From: Candidatus Peribacteraceae bacterium
GTDB lineage: Bacteria; Patescibacteriota; Gracilibacteria; Peribacterales; Peribacteraceae
Assembly (NCBI GenBank): GCA_022843885.1
Contig: JALHMU010000004.1
Span: 1 to 37,512 of the forward strand
Direction: 5' to 3'
DNA: 37,512 nt
In this document: positions 1 through 22,871 of the stretch, in pieces
How the letters are laid out: each line of letters begins with the position of its first letter
How positions within the stretch are numbered: position 1 is the stretch's first letter
Program-made: the position numbers and the translations under genes
Notes under the pieces: generated by a model
What the model saw: the letters and a program-made list of their open reading frames with translations, nothing else
Database searches by the model: none
What the model was told of the DNA's origin: nothing

Positions 1-3000
1 TCGATGCAGTCAATGTGTAGGTGGCAAGTCCACCGGCAACGACAGATGCTGGACCCGTTTTCTGGATCGCGAGGTCAGCGTTGACGATTGGACATGTAAC
101 CGTCGTGGAGACGATCGAACTCTGGTTGTTTGCTGGGTTTGGATCCGTTGTCGTTGCAGAGATTGCAGCGCGGTTCTGGATGACAGATTGTGTGCATTGC
201 GCAGGGTTCGGGACATTGAATGCCACCTGAACCGTCTGGCTCTGACCTGCTGCGAGCGTGATGTTGTCACAAAGGATGTTCGGACCGTTCTGGACACAAC
301 TTGTAGAGGACTGAGCGGCGTTGAACGTAAGACCTGCTGGGATCACATCGCTGAACGTCACGTGTTCAGCAGTTGCTGGACCAGCGTTCGTTGCAGTGAG
401 GTTGTATGTCACAACTGTACCGGCAACGACCGTTGCTGGACCAGACTTGATGATCGAAAGATCAGCAGTCATTGGAGCTGGGCATGTCACGTTCGTCGTA
501 ACAACTGAGCTCGTGTTGTTACCTTGGTTTGGGTCGTTCTGACCACCGGCAACAGATGCTGTGTTCTGAATTGTCGTTGGGACACACGTGTTTGGGTTGA
601 CTGTTGGGAGAGCGAAGACAAGCTTCACAGGGCGGCTCTGACCAGATGCAAGAACGAAGTTTCCACATGTGATCGCGTTGCCGTTCTTCGTGCAGGATGC
701 ATCGGATTCAGCAGCGACAAATGTGAGACCGCTTGGGATCTGATCCGTGATCGATGCATTCTGCACCGTTGCTGGACCGGCGTTGGAGACCGTCAATGTG
801 TACGTAATCTTTTCACCGGCGAGGATCGATGCTGGACCAGACTTCATAATCGAGAGATCAGAAGCGGTTGGCTGAGGACATGTGACCTGTGTGAAGACGA
901 TCGTGCTTGCGTTGTTCGAAGGATTTGGATCCGTCTGTGACGTGTTCACGAATGCTTGGTTTGCAACCGTGCGTGCGACACATGTGTTTGGATCGGCAGC
1001 TGGAGCATTGAAGACAACCGTTACCGTGCGGCTTGCGCCGGATGCGAGGGTGATGTTGTCACACAAGATGTTCGCACCGTTCTGCACACAGTTCGTAGAA
1101 GACTGTGCAGCGTTGAAGGTGAGACCAGCTGGTGTTGGGTCGATAATGTTGACGTTCGTTGCGATACCAGGACCAGCGTTTGAAGCTGTGAGCGTGTATG
1201 AGATTGTCGAACCAGCGACCGCAGTTGCAGGACCAGTCTTCAAGATAGAGAGGTCAGCACCGAGTGGCTCAGGACACAACACATTTGTTACAACGATCTG
1301 GCTCGTGTTGTTTGATTGGTTCGAATCAGACTGTGCAGCTGCGACAGATGCGCGGTTCTGGATCGTGGTTGGCGTGCAGTTGTTTGGAGCAGCAGGAACG
1401 TTGAAGGCCAAGTTCACTGTGCGGCTCTGACCAGCAGCGAGGTTCATGTTGTTACACACGATGCTTCCACCGTTCTGCGCACAGATCGTATCGGACTGTG
1501 CAGCGTTAAACGTGAGACCGGATGGGATCTGGTCGGTGATCACAACGCTCGTTGCGGATGCTGGACCCATGTTCGTAGCGGTCAACGTGTAGAGCACGAT
1601 GCCACCGGCTTGGACGGAGTATGGACCAGACTTGATGATTGCGAGATCAGCGTTTGTTGGCGTCGGACAGTTCACGGTTGTCGTGACAACGGAGCTCTGG
1701 TTGTTACTTGGATTTGGATCCGTCTGTGATGTGTTTACGTAGGCCTGGTTTGTAACTGTGCGTACGAAACAATTGTTTGGATCAGCGACCGGTGTATTGA
1801 AAGCGACCTGAACCGTGCGGCTCTGACCGGCTGCGAGTGTGATGTTGTCACACAAGATGTTCGCACCGTTCTGGACACAGTTTGCAGATGACTGAGCAGA
1901 GTTGAATGTCAGACCTGCTGGAGTTGGATCGATGATGTTTACGTTGGTTGCAGTTGCAGGACCAGCGTTCGTCACCGTCAATGTGTAGACGGCTACAGAA
2001 CCAGCTTGGACAGTTGCAGGACCAGACTTCGTGATGGAGAGATCAGCACCTTGTGGTGTTGGGCAGTTGACCATCGTGTTCACGATCTGACTTTGGTTGT
2101 TCGAAGGATTTGGATCCGTCGACGAGGATGAAACCGATGCGCGGTTCTGGATCGTCGTTGGCGTACATGCGTTTGGATCGACAGCAGGAACATTGAAGGC
2201 GATCTGGACTGTGCGTGACTGACCAGAAGCCAACGTGATGTTGTTACACTGAATGTTCGCACCGTTCTGGACACAGCTGTTGTCAGACTGTGCAGCGTTG
2301 AATGTAAGACCAGCTGGGATGACGTCATTGATCGTGACGTGTTCAGCAGTCGCAGGACCAGCGTTCGTAACCGTCAATGTGTAGGAGATTGTCGAACCTG
2401 GAGTGACAGTTGCAGGACCAGACTTCGTGATCGAAAGATCAGAACCTTGTGGCTGTGGACATGTCACGTTGGTTGTCACAACGGAGCTCTGGTTATTTGA
2501 AGGATTTGGGTCCGTCTGTGATGTGGAAACGGAACCGCGGTTTTGAATCGTTGTTGGGGTGCAGTTATTTGGATTCGCTGCAGGAATGTTGAAGGCAACC
2601 TGAACCGTGCGGCTCTGGCCTGGCGTCAACGAGAAGTTGTTACACTGAATGTTTGGACCGTTCTGCACACAGTTCGTAGAAGACTGTGCAGCGTTGAAGG
2701 TCACACCGGCAGGGATAACGTCGTTGATCGTGACGTTGGTTGCAGTTGCTGGACCAGCGTTTGTTGCAGTCAAGTTATAGACGGCAACACCACCAGCTTG
2801 AACAGTCGAAGGACCAGTTTTCTGGATCGAAAGGTCAGCACCTTGTGGCGTTGGGCATGTCACGTTTGTGACAACAGTCTGTGAAGTGTTGTTTCCTGGA
2901 GTCGTGTCACCAGGGGCAGACACTGTTGCAGTGTTTTGAAGCGTTGTTGGGACACACTGGTCACCAGTTGCTTGCGTGTTAAATGCGATAGAGAAGTTAC

Positions 3001-3240
3001 GTGACTGACCTCCAGTCAATGAGATACCGGAACAGACAACTGCGTTTCCTTGAAGCGTACACTGTGAGGAAGACTGAGCAGCGTTGAACGTTGTTCCTGC
3101 TGGAACTGGATCCGTGATCGAGACGTTCTGAACCGTACCCTGACCTTCGTTCTTCACCGTCACTGTGTAGACAGCAACGTTTCCTGCTTGAACGTTCGTA
3201 ACACCAGTCTTCTGGATGGAAACGTCCGTTGGGAATTCAC
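1..3240 (-). repeat. Tandem DUF11-like coding repeats, about 390-400 bp period, 9 units (last one partial)
   Basis: D(L/V)(S/A)I-x-K-(S/T)G start motifs recur near 3230, 2840, 2440, 2045, 1645, 1265, 860, 460 and 75 on the minus strand. A more divergent unit lies near 4215. Confidence 0.9.
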
Positions 3241-4909
3241 AGGTAACGACTGCAAGGTTGTATTCGGAGTGGTACTGCCACGTTCCACAGATATCGCGGA
3301 AGGTGGAGTTGATCTGACGAGATTCTTCAGACTGCTGACCATTGCGGACGAACAAGTTCGTCACATCAACTGGGTCGTACAATTTTGGAACGTTGTTGCA
3401 GCTTGCGTCGTAACGCAGCGTGCGGTTTCCGACAGATGTGACAAGATCGACAGCGTCATCTGTGACGTGGTAACGATTGTCACCTTCCGTTGGACCTTGA
3501 AGGAAGACGCGCTGACCTGGCTTCACATTGAGTGTTGCGGAGGTCGTATCAAACGTTGCACCAACTGTTCCGACTTGCTGGACCGGGTAGTTGTTTGCAA
3601 TGCGTGTGTAACGCACGTCTGGCGTGGCACCGTTCGTACAAATGTAGTTGTCCTTTTCCGTGTTGTCCTGCGTACCTGCACATCCTGGATCCTGACCGAA
3701 GTCGACTTTTCCGTCGCCATCGTTATCGATTCCATCGCTGCATTGCGGCTTCGGGAAGGTTTCGTCGTCATCGTTTGGACCGGAACAGCTGAAGTCATCT
3801 GGATGATCGATAGCACCGTCGCCATCGTTATCTTTTCCATCAGAACACTGTGGAGCACACTTCACCTGGGTAGGCGTCGTGGACACCGTCACTTCATCAG
3901 CGAACTGACCGTGCGCCTTCACTGTATTCACGATGGTCGTGTTACATGCAAAGGTCTGTGGGATCTGGAATGTAAGAGTAAATTCACGCGTTTCGTTGAT
4001 TGCAAGATTCGGAACGTCGCAGGAAACCATAGCTCCCTGAAGCGCGCATTCCTGGCTGCTTTCCTGTGGAATGTACGTGAGTCCGTTTGGGATCGTGTCG
4101 ATGACACCAGCGCGGAACGTTGCAAGATTTCCCGTGTTTTTGACGGTGACCTTGTACGAAATTTTTCCACCGACGGCTGGGTTGTTCGTCGTCACAGTTT
4201 TCTTCAATTCAAATTTTGCTTTGTTCACTGGAGACTCATCATTGTCATCTGGGTTTGTACAACCTGGATCATTTGGATAGTCGATCAAACCGTCGCCGTC
4301 GTTATCCTTGCCATCGCGGCACTGTGGAATATGAGCAGGCGTGACTTCGATGTTGAACGTACACTTTCCATGGTTGTCATCGTAACGTGAGTCCGTGTAG
4401 CCCCCCACGAGCTTTACGGCACCAGCTGGAACTTGAATGCCTCCTTCGAAGGAGCGCATCAAGATCGCAGCGCGATTACTTGGTGTCGGAACATTCGGAC
4501 GAACAACGTTGCCGCTGGCGTCAACGAACTGACCGACGATTGCATGCTTTGGAAGATCGTTGGTTCCCTCTTTTGCACCGTCGCGGCACGTGTGTGGATT
4601 TTGCAATCCACTTGCACCACCGAAGTCGATCTTGCCACTAATATTTGTGACTTTGATCGTGTCTCCCGCTTGCAGTCCATCGACCAACACACGTGGGTCT
4701 CGGGAACCGCTTCCGCGCCACCAGTAGTTACATCCTTCACTGCCGGAGTAACCCGGACACTGATGGATGACACCATCTTTGGCGTCAATGTATGAGTTCA
4801 CCACCTGGGCAGCATCAGCTGCGACAGGGAAGTTGAACGCAATAACGCCGAGTTGCGTGGCTGAGCCAGCAAACACGACGAGGAGAAGCACGGCAATCGG
4901 CTTCTTCAT
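1..4909 (-). CDS. Giant secreted surface protein with tandem DUF11-like repeats, C-terminus truncated by the left window edge
   Basis: Manual reverse-complement translation from ATG at 4909 (MKKPIAVLLLVVFAGSATQLGVIAFNFPVAADAAQ..., signal-peptide-like) gives 1636 uninterrupted codons to position 2. Repeated units of the type ADLSIxKSGPATVxAGxxxxYTLTxTNAGPAT...IPAGLTFNAAQS...NNxSxVVT. The ORF is absent from the supplied track, presumably because it has no stop inside the window. Confidence 0.93.
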   Translation of the reverse strand, partial: MKKPIAVLLLVVFAGSATQLGVIAFNFPVAADAAQVVNSYIDAKDGVIHQCPGYSGSEGCNYWWRGSGSRDPRVLVDGLQAGDTIKVTNISGKIDFGGASGLQNPHTCRDGAKEGTNDLPKHAIVGQFVDASGNVVRPNVPTPSNRAAILMRSFEGGIQVPAGAVKLVGGYTDSRYDDNHGKCTFNIEVTPAHIPQCRDGKDNDGDGLIDYPNDPGCTNPDDNDESPVNKAKFELKKTVTTNNPAVGGKISYKVTVKNTGNLATFRAGVIDTIPNGLTYIPQESSQECALQGAMVSCDVPNLAINETREFTLTFQIPQTFACNTTIVNTVKAHGQFADEVTVSTTPTQVKCAPQCSDGKDNDGDGAIDHPDDFSCSGPNDDDETFPKPQCSDGIDNDGDGKVDFGQDPGCAGTQDNTEKDNYICTNGATPDVRYTRIANNYPVQQVGTVGATFDTTSATLNVKPGQRVFLQGPTEGDNRYHVTDDAVDLVTSVGNRTLRYDASCNNVPKLYDPVDVTNLFVRNGQQSEESRQINSTFRDICGTWQYHSEYNLAVVTCEFPTDVSIQKTGVTNVQAGNVAVYTVTVKNEGQGTVQNVSITDPVPAGTTFNAAQSSSQCTLQGNAVVCSGISLTGGQSRNFSIAFNTQATGDQCVPTTLQNTATVSAPGDTTPGNNTSQTVVTNVTCPTPQGADLSIQKTGPSTVQAGGVAVYNLTATNAGPATATNVTINDVIPAGVTFNAAQSSTNCVQNGPNIQCNNFSLTPGQSRTVQVAFNIPAANPNNCTPTTIQNRGSVSTSQTDPNPSNNQSSVVTTNVTCPQPQGSDLSITKSGPATVTPGSTISYTLTVTNAGPATAEHVTINDVIPAGLTFNAAQSDNSCVQNGANIQCNNITLASGQSRTVQIAFNVPAVDPNACTPTTIQNRASVSSSSTDPNPSNNQSQIVNTMVNCPTPQGADLSITKSGPATVQAGSVAVYTLTVTNAGPATATNVNIIDPTPAGLTFNSAQSSANCVQNGANILCDNITLAAGQSRTVQVAFNTPVADPNNCFVRTVTNQAYVNTSQTDPNPSNNQSSVVTTTVNCPTPTNADLAIIKSGPYSVQAGGIVLYTLTATNMGPASATSVVITDQIPSGLTFNAAQSDTICAQNGGSIVCNNMNLAAGQSRTVNLAFNVPAAPNNCTPTTIQNRASVAAAQSDSNQSNNTSQIVVTNVLCPEPLGADLSILKTGPATAVAGSTISYTLTASNAGPGIATNVNIIDPTPAGLTFNAAQSSTNCVQNGANILCDNITLASGASRTVTVVFNAPAADPNTCVARTVANQAFVNTSQTDPNPSNNASTIVFTQVTCPQPTASDLSIMKSGPASILAGEKITYTLTVSNAGPATVQNASITDQIPSGLTFVAAESDASCTKNGNAITCGNFVLASGQSRPVKLVFALPTVNPNTCVPTTIQNTASVAGGQNDPNQGNNTSSVVTTNVTCPAPMTADLSIIKSGPATVVAGTVVTYNLTATNAGPATAEHVTFSDVIPAGLTFNAAQSSTSCVQNGPNILCDNITLAAGQSQTVQVAFNVPNPAQCTQSVIQNRAAISATTTDPNPANNQSSIVSTTVTCPIVNADLAIQKTGPASVVAGGLATYTLTAS

Positions 4910-4971
4910 GCGGAAATAAAGGGATGCAACGGCCTGCATAAGAAAGTGGGGTAGATACAAGAAAGTTGCTT

Positions 4972-16999: not shown

Positions 17000-17959
17000 T
17001 TAGCCTCCGAATGGAATCGGAGTCTTGATGCGACAGGCAGACGTACACGTGCTCGCTGGAGTACCGTTTTCGGCACCGAAGTCACATTGTTCACCGTTAT
17101 CCATCACACCGTCACCACATGAGATGTGCAAGGTACAGACGCTTGGATTGCCAGCACAGGTATAGCGGTTTTCAATAACGCACGAAGTGTTACAACCGTC
17201 ATTTGCTGCCGTGTTTCCATCATCACATTGTTCTGTTGGAGCCTTCCATGCATCGCCGCAGAGAGGCGTATCATGCAGATTGATCTGTGCGCCACCGGAT
17301 TCATTTACGATGATTGCGTACAACGCGTTCGGCTCGAAGCGAATACCTGTGGAAACATTTCCTGTTGGAAGGAATGTAATACCACGTGTCGACTGGAACG
17401 AGGAAAGTGCGTTGCCGTGTGCAGCTTCGTTGGCCCATGCTTGTGCCGAAGCGGCGAATGGACCAGGGAAACGCTGAGCGAACGTCGCAGCAGTTTTGTT
17501 TGCAATTTCCTGTGTCGCATCAGCATCGCTGTACTTATAGAAGAAGTAGTCCGGCATCGAACCTGTGCCTGCGGCACCGAATGCGAAATCGAATGGAACT
17601 GTTTCTGCAGTTGCTGATGTACGTACCAAATATACTGCGTCTTCCGAAAGTTGCTGGAATGTATCTGCAGTCGTTGTGTCCGAAAGTTCTACCATATACA
17701 CCTTAATAGCACCCGTCTGAAGCTGTCCGACTTCGACAATGGATGCGCCAACAGGGACCGTAATGTCACCCGGACGTACGAATGGGTTCGGGATACCAGC
17801 CGCGCCTTCACGCTGGACGATGTCGGCGAATGATTCAATCGGCTTCTGCATGGTCATGCGAACGTAGCCGGCTGTAATGCCAAGGAAGATGGCAGCCAGA
17901 GCAAAAACTCGGACTGAAGAACGGGAAGTGGACATAGGTGATGTTGGTATTTGGGACAT
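17000..17959 (-). CDS. Exported protein with DUF4215/Myxococcus-type cysteine-rich repeats at the C-terminus
   Basis: MSQIPTSPMSTSRSSVRVFALAAIFLGITAGYVRM...; CGDAWKAPTEQCDDGNTAANDGCNTSC and CGDGVMDNGEQCDFGAENG. Start at 17959 supported by TATAAT 7 nt upstream. Confidence 0.8.
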   Translation of the reverse strand: MSQIPTSPMSTSRSSVRVFALAAIFLGITAGYVRMTMQKPIESFADIVQREGAAGIPNPFVRPGDITVPVGASIVEVGQLQTGAIKVYMVELSDTTTADTFQQLSEDAVYLVRTSATAETVPFDFAFGAAGTGSMPDYFFYKYSDADATQEIANKTAATFAQRFPGPFAASAQAWANEAAHGNALSSFQSTRGITFLPTGNVSTGIRFEPNALYAIIVNESGGAQINLHDTPLCGDAWKAPTEQCDDGNTAANDGCNTSCVIENRYTCAGNPSVCTLHISCGDGVMDNGEQCDFGAENGTPASTCTSACRIKTPIPFGG

Positions 17960-17965
17960 CGAATC

Positions 17966-17971
17966 ATTATA
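17966..17971 (-). promoter_or_regulatory. -10 element TATAAT, leaderless
   Basis: Minus-strand GGTATAATGATTCGATG: hexamer ends 7 nt before the ATG at 17959. Confidence 0.6.
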
Positions 17972-18018
17972 CCTTTTTTTGCGTCTTTTTGAAAGAGCTG
18001 TTTTGGCTCTAAACACAC

Positions 18019-18062: not shown

Positions 18063-21000
18063 TTATCCAGCGTACTGCGTGCTGTTGATCGTTGTTTCAG
18101 GATAGTCGATCCACAAGAATTGCGTGGATGTCACATTATCACGATCGAACCACTTGATATGGCTTCCCGTAGGGCTGAATTCCGCAGCAGTCTTGGCCTC
18201 AAAGTTATTGAGACTCACCTTGAGGATCGAAAGTTGTGCAGCATTGATCTTTGGATTCAAAATAGCTGCCTCCAAAACAAGCGTTACATCTTCTCCCGAG
18301 TCCACACTCGTATCGACCGGATGATCGATCAGGTCGGTACAGAGCACGGTCAGATTACCTGTCTCACCTCCAGCGACAACGCTGCAGGTAGCTTTGATCG
18401 ACACATTCGCTTTGTTGTAGACGCGGAAGGAACCGCTATGCACCAGTACATTCGTGGCAGTCACATTGAAGATGATGCCGTAGATGTCTGCATCGTTCGT
18501 GCCATTTTTGCTATTGTTGTTCATTGCAGCACTGAATTTGTACTGACCGATTGGGCGATTACTTCCAGTTGGGATCGCTGTACCGTCTGCATCCGGGTTT
18601 GCATTCGTTATCGAGACAAACTTCGAGTACGTTACAACGTGTGATGTTCCATTGATCGACATATTTGGACCTGCGTCCCATGCTCTGCCGATGAAGACTT
18701 CACCTTCAGCGAGTGTGTCATTGTCGTTCGCAACAAGATTGCTCGAAGAGACGAGACCGCGGGCGCTCACTCGGCTCGCATCTTTATCGATAGAGATCGT
18801 GATATTCTGCCCTGAGATCGAACCTTCTGTATCAGAATTCAAACGTGGTCGAACAAGTACATCTGCATCCGATCCTTTCTGAAGAACGAGTTGCTTATTA
18901 TTCATGTTGGCACACATAGAGTTGGCATGAGCACCACCGCAGCCCGTAGGCGTCGCAACAGCGAATGGTGTTGTCGCACCGGCTTTGTAGAGTTCAAGCT
19001 GTTGAACGTTGGTCGAGAATGTTCCTGCGTTTGCACCCGATGCGGTGAAAACAAGCTTCGTGACATCGATTGCTTCATATTCCGCATGCAGTTTGAGACG
19101 CAGTATTTCATTTTCTAATGTTCCTCCAAGAAGCTGACGGTTTCGAATCGGTGTTATCGATTTCGAAACGTAGAGGTCACCGCTTTTACGCAATGTGTAG
19201 ATCGTTGCGTCTGCCGTCGAGACCCAGAATCCACATGTACTCGGGCAATTGCCGTTTACAGCGACTCCGGCATCCAGACTTTCGCCTGAAAGTATTTCTT
19301 CCGCTGCGATATCGCCATTTGTTGTTCCAAGGATCAACTGGAAGGTCGACTGTGCGAATGAAGTGTTGACTGTACCTTTCACTTCCATGGTTTTAATAGG
19401 CCCATTTTGCATGTCATATCCATCCATGAAGAAGGTTAGGATGCCGAAGGAAATTGTCGGATTCGATGCAATGATGGTATCTACATATCCATCCGAATTT
19501 TCGTCGGACCACAGCTGATAATTACTCATGCTATGCAGCGTGTTACCTGCAGGTCCACGGAATTTCATATGTGTGAGTCTAATAGGTTTATTGGATGCAC
19601 GAACTTCAAAACGCATAAGTGTTACACCTGTTTGATTTGCAACAACCGTATCCGTGATAGGTCCATGCAGCTGCATGATGTTCACACGCGGCGTTGTCTG
19701 TACGCTTGATTGCGCACTCATCTGAGACGAGGATGACCAGACGCTGGATGGCTGGGAGGTCATGGAGCTTTGCGCTGAGGAAGAGCTCGTAGGTGAACCA
19801 CCGACGTATCTGGTCGATATAATGGTATTGCCACCATTCAGATCAATATCTGCCCAACGCTGACCTGTAAAGCTTCCGCCGTTATCGCGGTCATACCATT
19901 GAATGTGACTGTCATGGATGCCAAATGTATCAGCAGTACCTTCTCTGTATGTATGGACGTTGTAGAGGGATACATCCAAGCTCGAAGGCGCGGTAGAATC
20001 CACCTGTGCATCAAACACATCTGCCTCAAGTACGAGTGTAATGTTCTGAGCGGGGTTGATGCTCGTATTGATCGGACCACTTTCCATACTGGCACAATGG
20101 ACCTGAAGCAGACCGTTGGTCGCATTGAAAATGCCGACACTACTCGTATCACCGATTGGACCACCAGAACTACTTGAACTACTCACCGTTCCCGGAGGAC
20201 CCGCGATCACGGAACAGGACTTTTTGGCTGTGGGATTTGCCTTGTTGTAGATGAAGAAAGAATTCGTTCCAAGAGAAACGTTTTGTGCCGCAACACTCAG
20301 AAGCAGATCGGAAATCTGCGCCTGATTCACTCCATTCTTTGCATTGTTGTTCGCCGCAGCAGTAAATTTGAACTGACCAATTGCACGATCAGTACCGACC
20401 GGAATAGCTGTGCCGTTTGCGTCAGGACTTGCGTTCGTGATTGATGTAATTTTGGAAAGAACAATTTTGTTCTTGCTTCCGACGATGTTGACGTTCGGGC
20501 CAGCATTGCTGCGTCCGACAATGATTTCTCCGGAAGCAGTGCTGTCGCCATTGTTTTGCAAAAGCGGAGTATTTTGAACGGTTGCAACAATGCTGTTGGC
20601 GAGATTGGAAACCATGAATTGCGCATACGCCGCCTGCATGGACTGGGCACCCTCCGTATCGGTATTGATGACCGGTTTTACAAGAAGGCGTGCAGTACTT
20701 CCTTTCGAAAGAGACAAGATGCTACTTGGGAATTGCGCACAAAACGTATGCGGCATTGCCTGGGGACAGGCCGAACGACTCGCGAGGGCAATTGGATTGT
20801 TCGTCGCGAGCAGTGAACCTGTGAGGTATATCGCAAGTGACTGAACACTATCCGTCGTACCGTCAGCTGACGGGCCGACTGCTGTAAACGAAAGTCGCTC
20901 TACATTCACATTTTTTCCTTCTGCATGAAGCTTCAAATCCAGAACAGGTTGTCCTGTGGTTCCACCGAGAAGTTGCTGTGGCTGAGGAATAATATTATTT

Positions 21001-21089
21001 TCGATATAGAGAACGGCCGGACCATCCTTGGCGTTGCAAGCGCTCAAGAGAAACGCTGGCACAGCGAGGAGGAGAAGAAACTTCTTCAT
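18063..21089 (-). CDS. Large surface lipoprotein with an internally duplicated module of about 370-400 aa
   Basis: 1008 aa; MKKFLLLLAVPAFLLSAC lipobox; two homologous halves separated by a Ser-rich linker (SSSSAQSSMTSQPSSVWSSSSQMSAQSSVQ). Confidence 0.88.
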   Translation of the reverse strand: MKKFLLLLAVPAFLLSACNAKDGPAVLYIENNIIPQPQQLLGGTTGQPVLDLKLHAEGKNVNVERLSFTAVGPSADGTTDSVQSLAIYLTGSLLATNNPIALASRSACPQAMPHTFCAQFPSSILSLSKGSTARLLVKPVINTDTEGAQSMQAAYAQFMVSNLANSIVATVQNTPLLQNNGDSTASGEIIVGRSNAGPNVNIVGSKNKIVLSKITSITNASPDANGTAIPVGTDRAIGQFKFTAAANNNAKNGVNQAQISDLLLSVAAQNVSLGTNSFFIYNKANPTAKKSCSVIAGPPGTVSSSSSSGGPIGDTSSVGIFNATNGLLQVHCASMESGPINTSINPAQNITLVLEADVFDAQVDSTAPSSLDVSLYNVHTYREGTADTFGIHDSHIQWYDRDNGGSFTGQRWADIDLNGGNTIISTRYVGGSPTSSSSAQSSMTSQPSSVWSSSSQMSAQSSVQTTPRVNIMQLHGPITDTVVANQTGVTLMRFEVRASNKPIRLTHMKFRGPAGNTLHSMSNYQLWSDENSDGYVDTIIASNPTISFGILTFFMDGYDMQNGPIKTMEVKGTVNTSFAQSTFQLILGTTNGDIAAEEILSGESLDAGVAVNGNCPSTCGFWVSTADATIYTLRKSGDLYVSKSITPIRNRQLLGGTLENEILRLKLHAEYEAIDVTKLVFTASGANAGTFSTNVQQLELYKAGATTPFAVATPTGCGGAHANSMCANMNNKQLVLQKGSDADVLVRPRLNSDTEGSISGQNITISIDKDASRVSARGLVSSSNLVANDNDTLAEGEVFIGRAWDAGPNMSINGTSHVVTYSKFVSITNANPDADGTAIPTGSNRPIGQYKFSAAMNNNSKNGTNDADIYGIIFNVTATNVLVHSGSFRVYNKANVSIKATCSVVAGGETGNLTVLCTDLIDHPVDTSVDSGEDVTLVLEAAILNPKINAAQLSILKVSLNNFEAKTAAEFSPTGSHIKWFDRDNVTSTQFLWIDYPETTINSTQYAG

Positions 21090-21131: not shown

Positions 21132-21160
21132 ATTATACCTGTTTTAGAACATTTTTACAA
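21132..21160 (-). promoter_or_regulatory. Sigma70-type promoter of the 1008-aa lipoprotein gene
   Basis: TTGTAA (21160-21155), 17-nt spacer, TATAAT (21137-21132) on the minus strand. Confidence 0.65.
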
Positions 21161-22330
21161 CTACCGACTTGCCTCAATGAGAGGCCCTGTTCCCTGCCCG
21201 GCAATGCCTTCAGATTCAGCTAAACAGGCCCGAGCAGTGTGCGTGCCGCCATTCCTATTCACAACATAATACGTCTTCATTTCTTCGACATCTGCAGCAG
21301 GATCGAATGGTATGCGACCGAGGCGTCCGTTCCCCACCAGTTCGTCTTCCAGATCAATACATTCAGAAAGAATGAAGAGTGTGCCCTGGCCGTTGAGTAC
21401 CGAGGGCGTATCTTCGATTTGTTCGACTGTGCCGGATGGGATCAATGTGACACCCGCGATACTGTCAGTCCAGGGATCGCCGGAGTTTTCAAAATTCCAA
21501 TAGCCGAGGATTCCTTCACGAAGATCTTTTCCGATAGCGAGCCCGCGAATGGAATCGGACGAGAGAACGTTGTCGTAAAGACGCACATCATCAAGAATAC
21601 CGTCGAGATATATCAACGGATTATCTCCTGTGCCGAATGCAAATGCGCCCGTTGTTCCAAAAGTTCCAAGAATGCCGTTTAGCGTTGTTGTCGTTGCGAT
21701 TTCTTGCCCATCCACATACAGCTTGATCCGATCTTCGGAATCGGAAATTGTTCCATCATATGTTGCTGCGATGTGATGAAATGTGCCGTCCGATGTCGTG
21801 GCATCTCCTTGCGCAATAAGTTCCGCACTCGACGTTCGAAGCACAAGCCGAACTGCCTGATTTGGCATAAGCATCAGATCGATGCCGTCGTCGTTGTCAT
21901 CATGTAGTGAAACGAGCGGGTTGGCACCGACTTGAACATTGGCCCATGCAGCAACGGTGAATGTGCTTGTAGGCTGAAACGGAAAAGGAATCGTGCCAAT
22001 GCGCAAATGACCGAGGCCGTTAAAAGATGCAGCCTGAGAAGAAAGAATGCCATCCGATCCGGCTGCACAATTGAGGATTCCACACTCGTTTCCCGAGCCA
22101 AGCATTTGCCATGTTCCTGGGTCGCTGTCGATTTTTTCAATATTGCCGGCGCCAACGAGATGCAGGGAAATCGCCGAGACTATTGCCGTTACATCGGCAC
22201 GTCGACGTGTGTTGCGACTGGCATTCAAGCGTTTCACGGGATCAAGCGCGACGAAGACGACGGACACGATCACCGCGATGATCGCGATGACGATAATGAG
22301 CTCAATGAGGGTGAAACCTTTCTTCTTCAT
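21161..22330 (-). CDS. Type IV pilin/pseudopilin with an inserted LamG/concanavalin A-like domain
   Basis: MKKKGFTLIELIIVIAIIAVIVSVVFVALDPVKRLNASRNTRRRADV class III signal; middle SFNGLGHLRIG...FTVAAWANV...HHIAATYDGT...IKLYVDGQEI...LDGILDDVRLYDNVLSSDSI (LamG); pilin-like C-terminus. Start at 22330 preferred over the track start at 22342. Confidence 0.85.
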   Translation of the reverse strand: MKKKGFTLIELIIVIAIIAVIVSVVFVALDPVKRLNASRNTRRRADVTAIVSAISLHLVGAGNIEKIDSDPGTWQMLGSGNECGILNCAAGSDGILSSQAASFNGLGHLRIGTIPFPFQPTSTFTVAAWANVQVGANPLVSLHDDNDDGIDLMLMPNQAVRLVLRTSSAELIAQGDATTSDGTFHHIAATYDGTISDSEDRIKLYVDGQEIATTTTLNGILGTFGTTGAFAFGTGDNPLIYLDGILDDVRLYDNVLSSDSIRGLAIGKDLREGILGYWNFENSGDPWTDSIAGVTLIPSGTVEQIEDTPSVLNGQGTLFILSECIDLEDELVGNGRLGRIPFDPAADVEEMKTYYVVNRNGGTHTARACLAESEGIAGQGTGPLIEASR

Positions 22331-22366
22331 TTGTCCGAGCATAGCGAAAGACAGATGGAAAGAAAA

Positions 22367-22396
22367 AGCCGCTCCACCCGAATGGATGGAACGGCT
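22367..22396 (-). terminator. Rho-independent terminator downstream of the SpoVG-like gene
   Basis: Minus strand AGCCGTTCCA-TCCATTCGGG-TGGAGCGGCT-TTTT; 10-bp stem with one G:U. Confidence 0.8.
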
Positions 22397-22424: not shown

Positions 22425-22871
22425 TCAGGCTGCGTCTCCGCGCCGAATGATAATGGGTTCAGGCGGAGTGTACGTAGGCTCTTGTGAGAGCTGCAACGCT
22501 TGTTCATAGGCCTCCAAAATAACGTTAGTCATGTATTGTCTGACAGACATTTTCAGCGGGTGCACGATGTCGAAATAAATCAGATCATCATGGGGCCGCT
22601 GCAGAAATTCTTCTGACGCGAGTTCCAAACCGCAATGATTGCAGAATCGCACTCGCACAGGATTACCTCTTCCGCATTGAGAACAACGTTCCCGCCTCCG
22701 AAGGTCGGGCATGACGATCGAGAGTCCTCGAGCAGATGTCAGGATCCGTAATTCGTGGATCGCAAATTCATCATCCAAGGTGATCGAACAAAAGGCTTTC
22801 AATCGATTTTGGCCAGCAGTTTTCCGAATGCTGGGCCGCATGAGTCGAATTGTGACTTCGGTGATTTCCAA
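22425..22871 (-). CDS. SpoVG-like protein with an inserted CxxC...CxxC zinc ribbon
   Basis: 148 aa; MEITEVTIRLM...RLKAFCSITLDDEFAIHELRILTSARGLSIVMP and FDIVHPLKMSVRQYMTNVILEAYE match the SpoVG pattern; CSQCGRGNPVRVRFCNHCG in between. TTG start with AAGGAG 7 nt upstream. Confidence 0.78.
   Translation of the reverse strand: MEITEVTIRLMRPSIRKTAGQNRLKAFCSITLDDEFAIHELRILTSARGLSIVMPDLRRRERCSQCGRGNPVRVRFCNHCGLELASEEFLQRPHDDLIYFDIVHPLKMSVRQYMTNVILEAYEQALQLSQEPTYTPPEPIIIRRGDAA

Follow-up and report, generated by a model that had tools for sequence, protein, structure and literature searches.

Type IV prepilins with additional modules have been described in several systems. In Streptococcus sanguinis, PilB and PilC are modular pilins (PMC8179133, PMC9934059); PilC is a lectin with proven glycan binding and a modelled tip position, in which a short pilin moiety comes first and the Ig-like and lectin modules make up the C-terminal part (PMC9934059). 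In a survey of modular pilins, PF13385 ranks with the most frequent additional modules, several of its representatives being from candidate phyla (PMC8179133). Insertion of a domain into the pilin fold itself was reported for ComZ of Thermus thermophilus and for GspK of type II secretion, where the insertion points lie between late β-strands, the inserts are a β-solenoid or an α-domain, and a location at the fibre tip was argued (PMC6561018). In Patescibacteria, the minor pilins PilX1 and PilX2 of Nanosynbacter lyticus TM7x carry extra C-terminal domains (a jelly roll in PilX1, a β-propeller in PilX2), and PilX2, an extended-domain minor pilin, is needed for normal host binding of this episymbiont (PMC12206443). 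Partner recognition by ultrasmall host-dependent bacteria is still largely open; pili have been implicated, and host-specific receptors on them are hardly known.

Here, a prepilin gene of a Candidatus Peribacteraceae bacterium was analysed. It is located in the window, i.e. the whole 37,512-nucleotide stretch, which is contig C4 of a draft genome (861 kb, 75 contigs, 66% complete). Like PilC, its product is a type IV prepilin with a concanavalin-A-like module (PMC9934059), and it combines the same two domain families as the PF13385 modular pilins in the InterPro architectures of the survey (PMC8179133). Unlike in PilC, the LamG domain interrupts the pilin. Judged by sequence, placement of a domain inside the pilin fold is shared with ComZ and GspK; the insert here is LamG, it is framed by conserved cysteines, and it probably lies in a loop before the C-terminal sheet. 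PilX1 and PilX2 likewise are pilins of Patescibacteria with extra domains, theirs, in contrast, being C-terminal. By analogy, the closest functional parallels would be PilC of S. sanguinis (PMC9934059) and PilX2 of TM7x (PMC12206443). The survey records domain content, and its entries may include cases like the window pilin (PMC8179133); catalogues of modular pilins that rest on domain content alone do not tell whether a module was appended or inserted. Pilins with LamG and modular pilins from candidate phyla are already known (PMC8179133), and ComZ and GspK are precedents for a domain inserted into a pilin. What is new is LamG combined with insertion, the cysteine-framed slot and its swapped contents. 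No description of LamG in a cysteine-framed pilin loop, with other carbohydrate-binding-type domains at this place in relatives, was found among the open-licence papers searched.

Prepilin gene and insertion site

The gene occupies positions 21161–22342 (minus strand) and encodes 393 aa in a frame open throughout without stops, as delimited by the reading frame together with Pfam and TIGR02532 matches. A preliminary description of this DNA had assigned it to 21161–22330; the end was retained, and the start was moved, position 22330 being the second in-frame ATG (residue 5) of a frame that reaches 22342. A short basic leader remains with either start. The protein begins with MLGQMKKKGFTLIELIIVIAIIAV, a textbook prepilin signal. 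The class III signal (residues 1–30; 22253–22342, minus strand) comprises the short leader MLGQMKKKG, followed by FTLIEL and a hydrophobic helix, with Gly before FTLIE and with E5 in place (GFTLIEL). N_methyl (PF07963) was matched at residues 5–30 with E = 4.5e-8, above the Pfam cut-off, and TIGR02532 with 32.5 bits (cut-off 16.3).

The N-terminal pilin segment (residues 1–92; 22067–22342, minus strand), delimited by a pilin-only HMM matched to about position 103 and by alignment with insert-free pilins, ends with Cys87 and Cys92. It is followed by a stretch without cysteine, residues 93–327 (21362–22066, minus strand), which lies between Cys92 and Cys328 and is absent from insert-free homologues. 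The C-terminal pilin segment (residues 328–393; 21164–21361, minus strand) contains Cys328 and Cys373. Within the inserted stretch, a Laminin_G_3 core with the concanavalin-A-like jelly roll was located at residues 121–265 (21548–21982, minus strand) by Pfam (PF13385; E = 8.1e-22, 78 bits against a cut-off of 27.6), by the predicted model and by Foldseek, so that the LamG domain on which the preliminary description hinged is present.

The pilin-only HMM was trained on 14 LamG-free pilins, all from genomes other than that of the window. Residues 1–95 alone scored 100.7 bits against this HMM and residues 326–393 alone 41.4 bits (best of 300 segment shuffles: 4.3), and the full-length protein gave two matches (5–112 and 319–393) with a break near model position 103. 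After excision (1–95 joined to 322–393), one match of 152.4 bits was obtained over HMM positions 10–174, a range that at the level of sequence takes in the globular pilin head after the helix. Given one continuous match after excision and two in the full protein, both flanks belong to one pilin module that is interrupted by a LamG stretch of ~235 aa.

Insert-free counterparts occur naturally. Two pilins of ~170 aa were found in genome G025, one of which (186-aa frame) shares 56% identity with window residues 7–93 and 49% with residues 341–392; similar ones are encoded in G026, G003 and G016, and contig C12 of the own genome carries a 196-aa insert-free relative. These proteins align to both flanks, and LamG falls exactly in the alignment gap. 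The splitting of the pilin module by LamG at one site is hereby confirmed at the level of sequence. It had been proposed beforehand that both termini jointly resemble one pilin, that ~230 aa of LamG (about 21365–22060; measured here as 21362–22066) are an insertion and not a C-terminal fusion, and that an in-silico deletion should leave a recognisable pilin. All of this held in the excision, in the insert-free homologues and in two paralogues of the same layout. Modular pilins in the sense of PMC8179133 carry the module after the pilin via a short linker; here, pilin sequence resumes past LamG, and the extra domain, judged by sequence, sits within the pilin fold as in ComZ and GspK.

Predicted structures

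For the full-length AlphaFold model, which had also been suggested beforehand, the relatives in the alignment (viral contigs) covered LamG only, with none for residues 61–103 and 279–393. A helix at residues 12–57 (weaker toward its end) and a jelly roll at about 105–275 (pLDDT mostly 85–96) were predicted with confidence; the pilin-head segments 61–103 and 279–393, where the alignment contained no relatives, stayed below pLDDT 50, so that the model speaks neither for nor against the insertion. The complete jelly-roll fold was recognised in the model and by Foldseek, with which the inserted domain matched pentraxins, sialic-acid-binding CBM40 and LG domains (E = 1e-7 to 1e-6) and also arabinan-binding domains. 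The concanavalin-A-like fold class includes many lectins; the class alone gives no ligand.

The insert-free pilin L116 was modelled at pLDDT 77 with a helix (11–63) and a small sheet, and a Foldseek comparison of this model with the PDB returned no significant match. The slot corresponds to a loop between strands 80–83 and 102–104, before three C-terminal strands, parts of this loop having low pLDDT.

The slot in related genomes

Other LamG pilins, a search for which had been proposed in the preliminary description, were found with LamG in the same slot, two in the own genome and one in G023. The own-genome pair is encoded by adjacent genes of the same layout on C12 (424 aa, C12:16833–15562; 409 aa, C12:15555–14329) and directly follows a 315-aa pilin whose extra sequence is C-terminal. 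Among the three own-genome paralogues, the inserts share 27–30% identity versus 35–51% for the pilin segments. A scan of genome contigs yielded pilins similar in their N-terminal part but no additional LamG insert, and none turned up in a viral scan with the whole window protein. Some genomes of the same class have in-frame TGA within the matched sequences, which is expected for Gracilibacteria/Absconditabacteria that recode this codon. As a separate observation on C12, the insert-free pilins are preceded by a sequence that resembles PilM weakly (E = 6e-7, well short of the family cut-off).

Eight pilins with an insert were identified in the family's genomes, and the pilin profile is interrupted at about the same point in each of them (103–106 where the cut is sharp). 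The C-terminal motif of the pilins reads C-x-L...IPxDP...C. Seven of the eight show the arrangement C-x(3-4)-C-insert-C-x(42-44)-C with an insert without cysteine, i.e. four conserved cysteines outside the leader, which are Cys87, Cys92, Cys328 and Cys373 in the window pilin; the spacing between the second and third is mostly about 8–10 residues in insert-free relatives versus 235 in the window. The slot holds LamG in half of the eight, namely the window pilin, its two paralogues and the G023 protein (604 aa), the last with one cysteine only before the insert and a weak C-terminal pilin part (14 bits). In the G194:C9 pilin (L167:1609–2646) it is filled by CBM96 (PF24517, E = 1.7e-15), and in the G032:C20, G194:C77 and G023:C21 pilins by an unnamed domain with marginal similarity to CBM96.

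This unnamed domain (~196 aa; inserts of L165:1314–2345, L166:1367–2434 and L168:2035–3072) has no Pfam match, occurs in three genomes at 41–74% identity and may deserve a family of its own. Genome G194 encodes two pilins with different domains in the same slot, CBM96 (L167:1609–2646) versus the unnamed domain of ~197 aa (L166:1367–2434).

LamG appended after a complete pilin module is the commoner layout in the same genomes and insertion the rarer one; C-terminal LamG fusions in relatives were clearly told apart by the same pilin-only profile. An appended architecture is also seen in a 609-aa pilin of the own genome (contig C10, L041:1769–3595) with C-terminal PKD domains and LamG.

When a tree was computed from the pilin modules after removal of the inserts, at least four changes were required to explain the insert-bearing pilins, two of them being forced by well-supported branches. 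In AU tests, a single clade of all eight insert-bearing pilins was borderline and not rejected (p = 0.055), and grouping the four LamG inserts in one clade gave no significant deviation (p = 0.20); a shared origin of the three own-genome LamG pilins is compatible with the data. As LamG and CBM96 belong to separate Pfam families, either several insertions took place at the slot or one content replaced another. On both readings it looks like a reused insertion site, independent origins being not formally proven at AU p = 0.055. We put it at slightly under an even chance that four-cysteine pilins of Patescibacteria possess a general cysteine-framed plug-in slot, into which unrelated glycan-binding domains are repeatedly inserted or swapped, so that host recognition changes with pilus assembly untouched. 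If true, a pilin with an exchangeable recognition module at a fixed cysteine-framed site would be a concrete and testable receptor candidate.

Proposed function and alternatives

Machinery for type IV pilus assembly is encoded in the draft genome (three PF00437, three PF00482 and one PF01478 match), including a PilB/GspE-type ATPase and a PilC-type platform protein on C41 and a PilD-type prepilin peptidase on C36. The protein is probably a minor type IV pilin that carries LamG inside its head, where the loop from the second to the third conserved cysteine would be an exchangeable slot for a displayed recognition module. In this scheme the leader would be cleaved by the PilD-type peptidase and the hydrophobic helix would pack into the pilus; disulfides of the conserved cysteines may staple the base of the inserted domain, and LamG would project from the fibre and attach to another cell by way of a glycan or a surface protein. 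Recognition modules could change via the slot (other LamG, CBM96, unnamed domains) while the assembly part stays. A position at or near the tip, or a sparse one, is likely by analogy with ComZ, PilB and PilC, for which it was argued that the tip best accommodates such bulky modules (PMC6561018, PMC8179133, PMC9934059).

A lectin or host-binding role, and with it a part in episymbiosis, is suggested by analogy, given the concanavalin-A-like fold class, to which the proven lectin PilC of S. sanguinis also belongs (PMC9934059). The group as a whole is likely to live in dependence on hosts. Against the proposed role, the pilin gene does not adjoin pilus machinery genes, and the LamG family is not always sugar-binding.

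Alternatively, the protein could be a type II secretion-like or competence-type pseudopilin whose LamG binds a secreted substrate, a DNA-associated polymer or the cell's own envelope glycan rather than a host, which we consider unlikely. The main assembly ATPase on C41 scores high against both GspE and PilB, and the inserted domain of ComZ serves DNA uptake (PMC6561018). On the other hand, further ATPases on C13 and C19, assigned to the level of the PilB/GspE superfamily, would fit a retractable pilus, and the inserts include carbohydrate-binding-type domains of two families.

A further alternative is that LamG binds nothing specific and serves only as a spacer or decoration of the structure, having spread since the domain is abundant in these genomes; this we regard as rather improbable. 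LamG exceeds the cut-off in 58 of the family's 74 genomes, mostly in very large frames, and the own genome and its relatives are rich in it in other surface proteins, so that it may serve generic adhesion. The inserts of the three paralogues moreover diverge more than their pilin segments. Opposed to this are the complete, confidently modelled jelly roll, intact in all three paralogues, and the unrelated CBM96 in the same slot of a relative, as expected if binding is selected.

It is very improbable that the N- and C-terminal parts are separate sequential domains, the latter merely resembling pilin C-termini. Although residues 279–393 are unfolded in the AlphaFold model, they had no aligned relatives there; the C-terminal part reaches 41 bits against at most 4.3 for shuffles, its match begins at the model position where the N-terminal one ends, and in insert-free homologues it directly follows the N-terminal part. 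An assembly artefact or decayed gene, for which nothing speaks beyond the 66% completeness of the draft, is refuted for practical purposes by the open frame, by two paralogues of the same layout on another contig with 27–30% insert identity, and by inserts at the same place in other genomes, i.e. by recurrence in independent contigs and genomes.

Gene surroundings

The upstream neighbour of the pilin gene is SpoVG-like and closes with a strong intrinsic terminator (22367–22396, minus strand), a 13-pair stem followed by TTTTCTTT. With this terminator between the two genes, the pilin gene is probably transcribed separately and, judged by its DNA context, looks monocistronic. In the gap that separates it from the lipoprotein-like gene downstream, a consensus scan gave the promoter-like site TTGTAA-17-TATAAT (21132–21160, minus strand), of a kind whose regional frequency is not above chance. 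Co-transcription with the downstream lipoprotein gene was weighed as an alternative and rejected in view of the upstream terminator and this promoter-like site.

In the SpoVG-like protein (22425–22871, minus strand), the SpoVG match (profile 1–82) is stretched over residues 1–124, with a zinc-ribbon-like insert (CxxC...CxxC near 63–84) as another domain insertion adjoining the pilin gene; no counterpart came up in a comparison with 39 related genomes at E = 1e-3. Downstream of the pilin gene, 18063–21089 (minus strand) encodes a 1008-aa lipoprotein-like surface protein with an LSAC signal and an apparent internal duplication, for which no Pfam or NCBIfam match was obtained. It is followed by a 338-aa, probably exported protein (17000–18016, minus strand) with two DUF4215/myxo-type cysteine-rich repeats, which fits the cysteine-rich surface proteins reported for Peribacteria (PMC4736985). 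At the contig end, a secreted-looking protein of at least 1653 aa (2–4960, minus strand) with many similar repeats (‘ADLSIxKSGPATV...’) runs off the sequence; the mechanical open reading frames on the opposite strand over the same positions are a shadow of this repeat protein.
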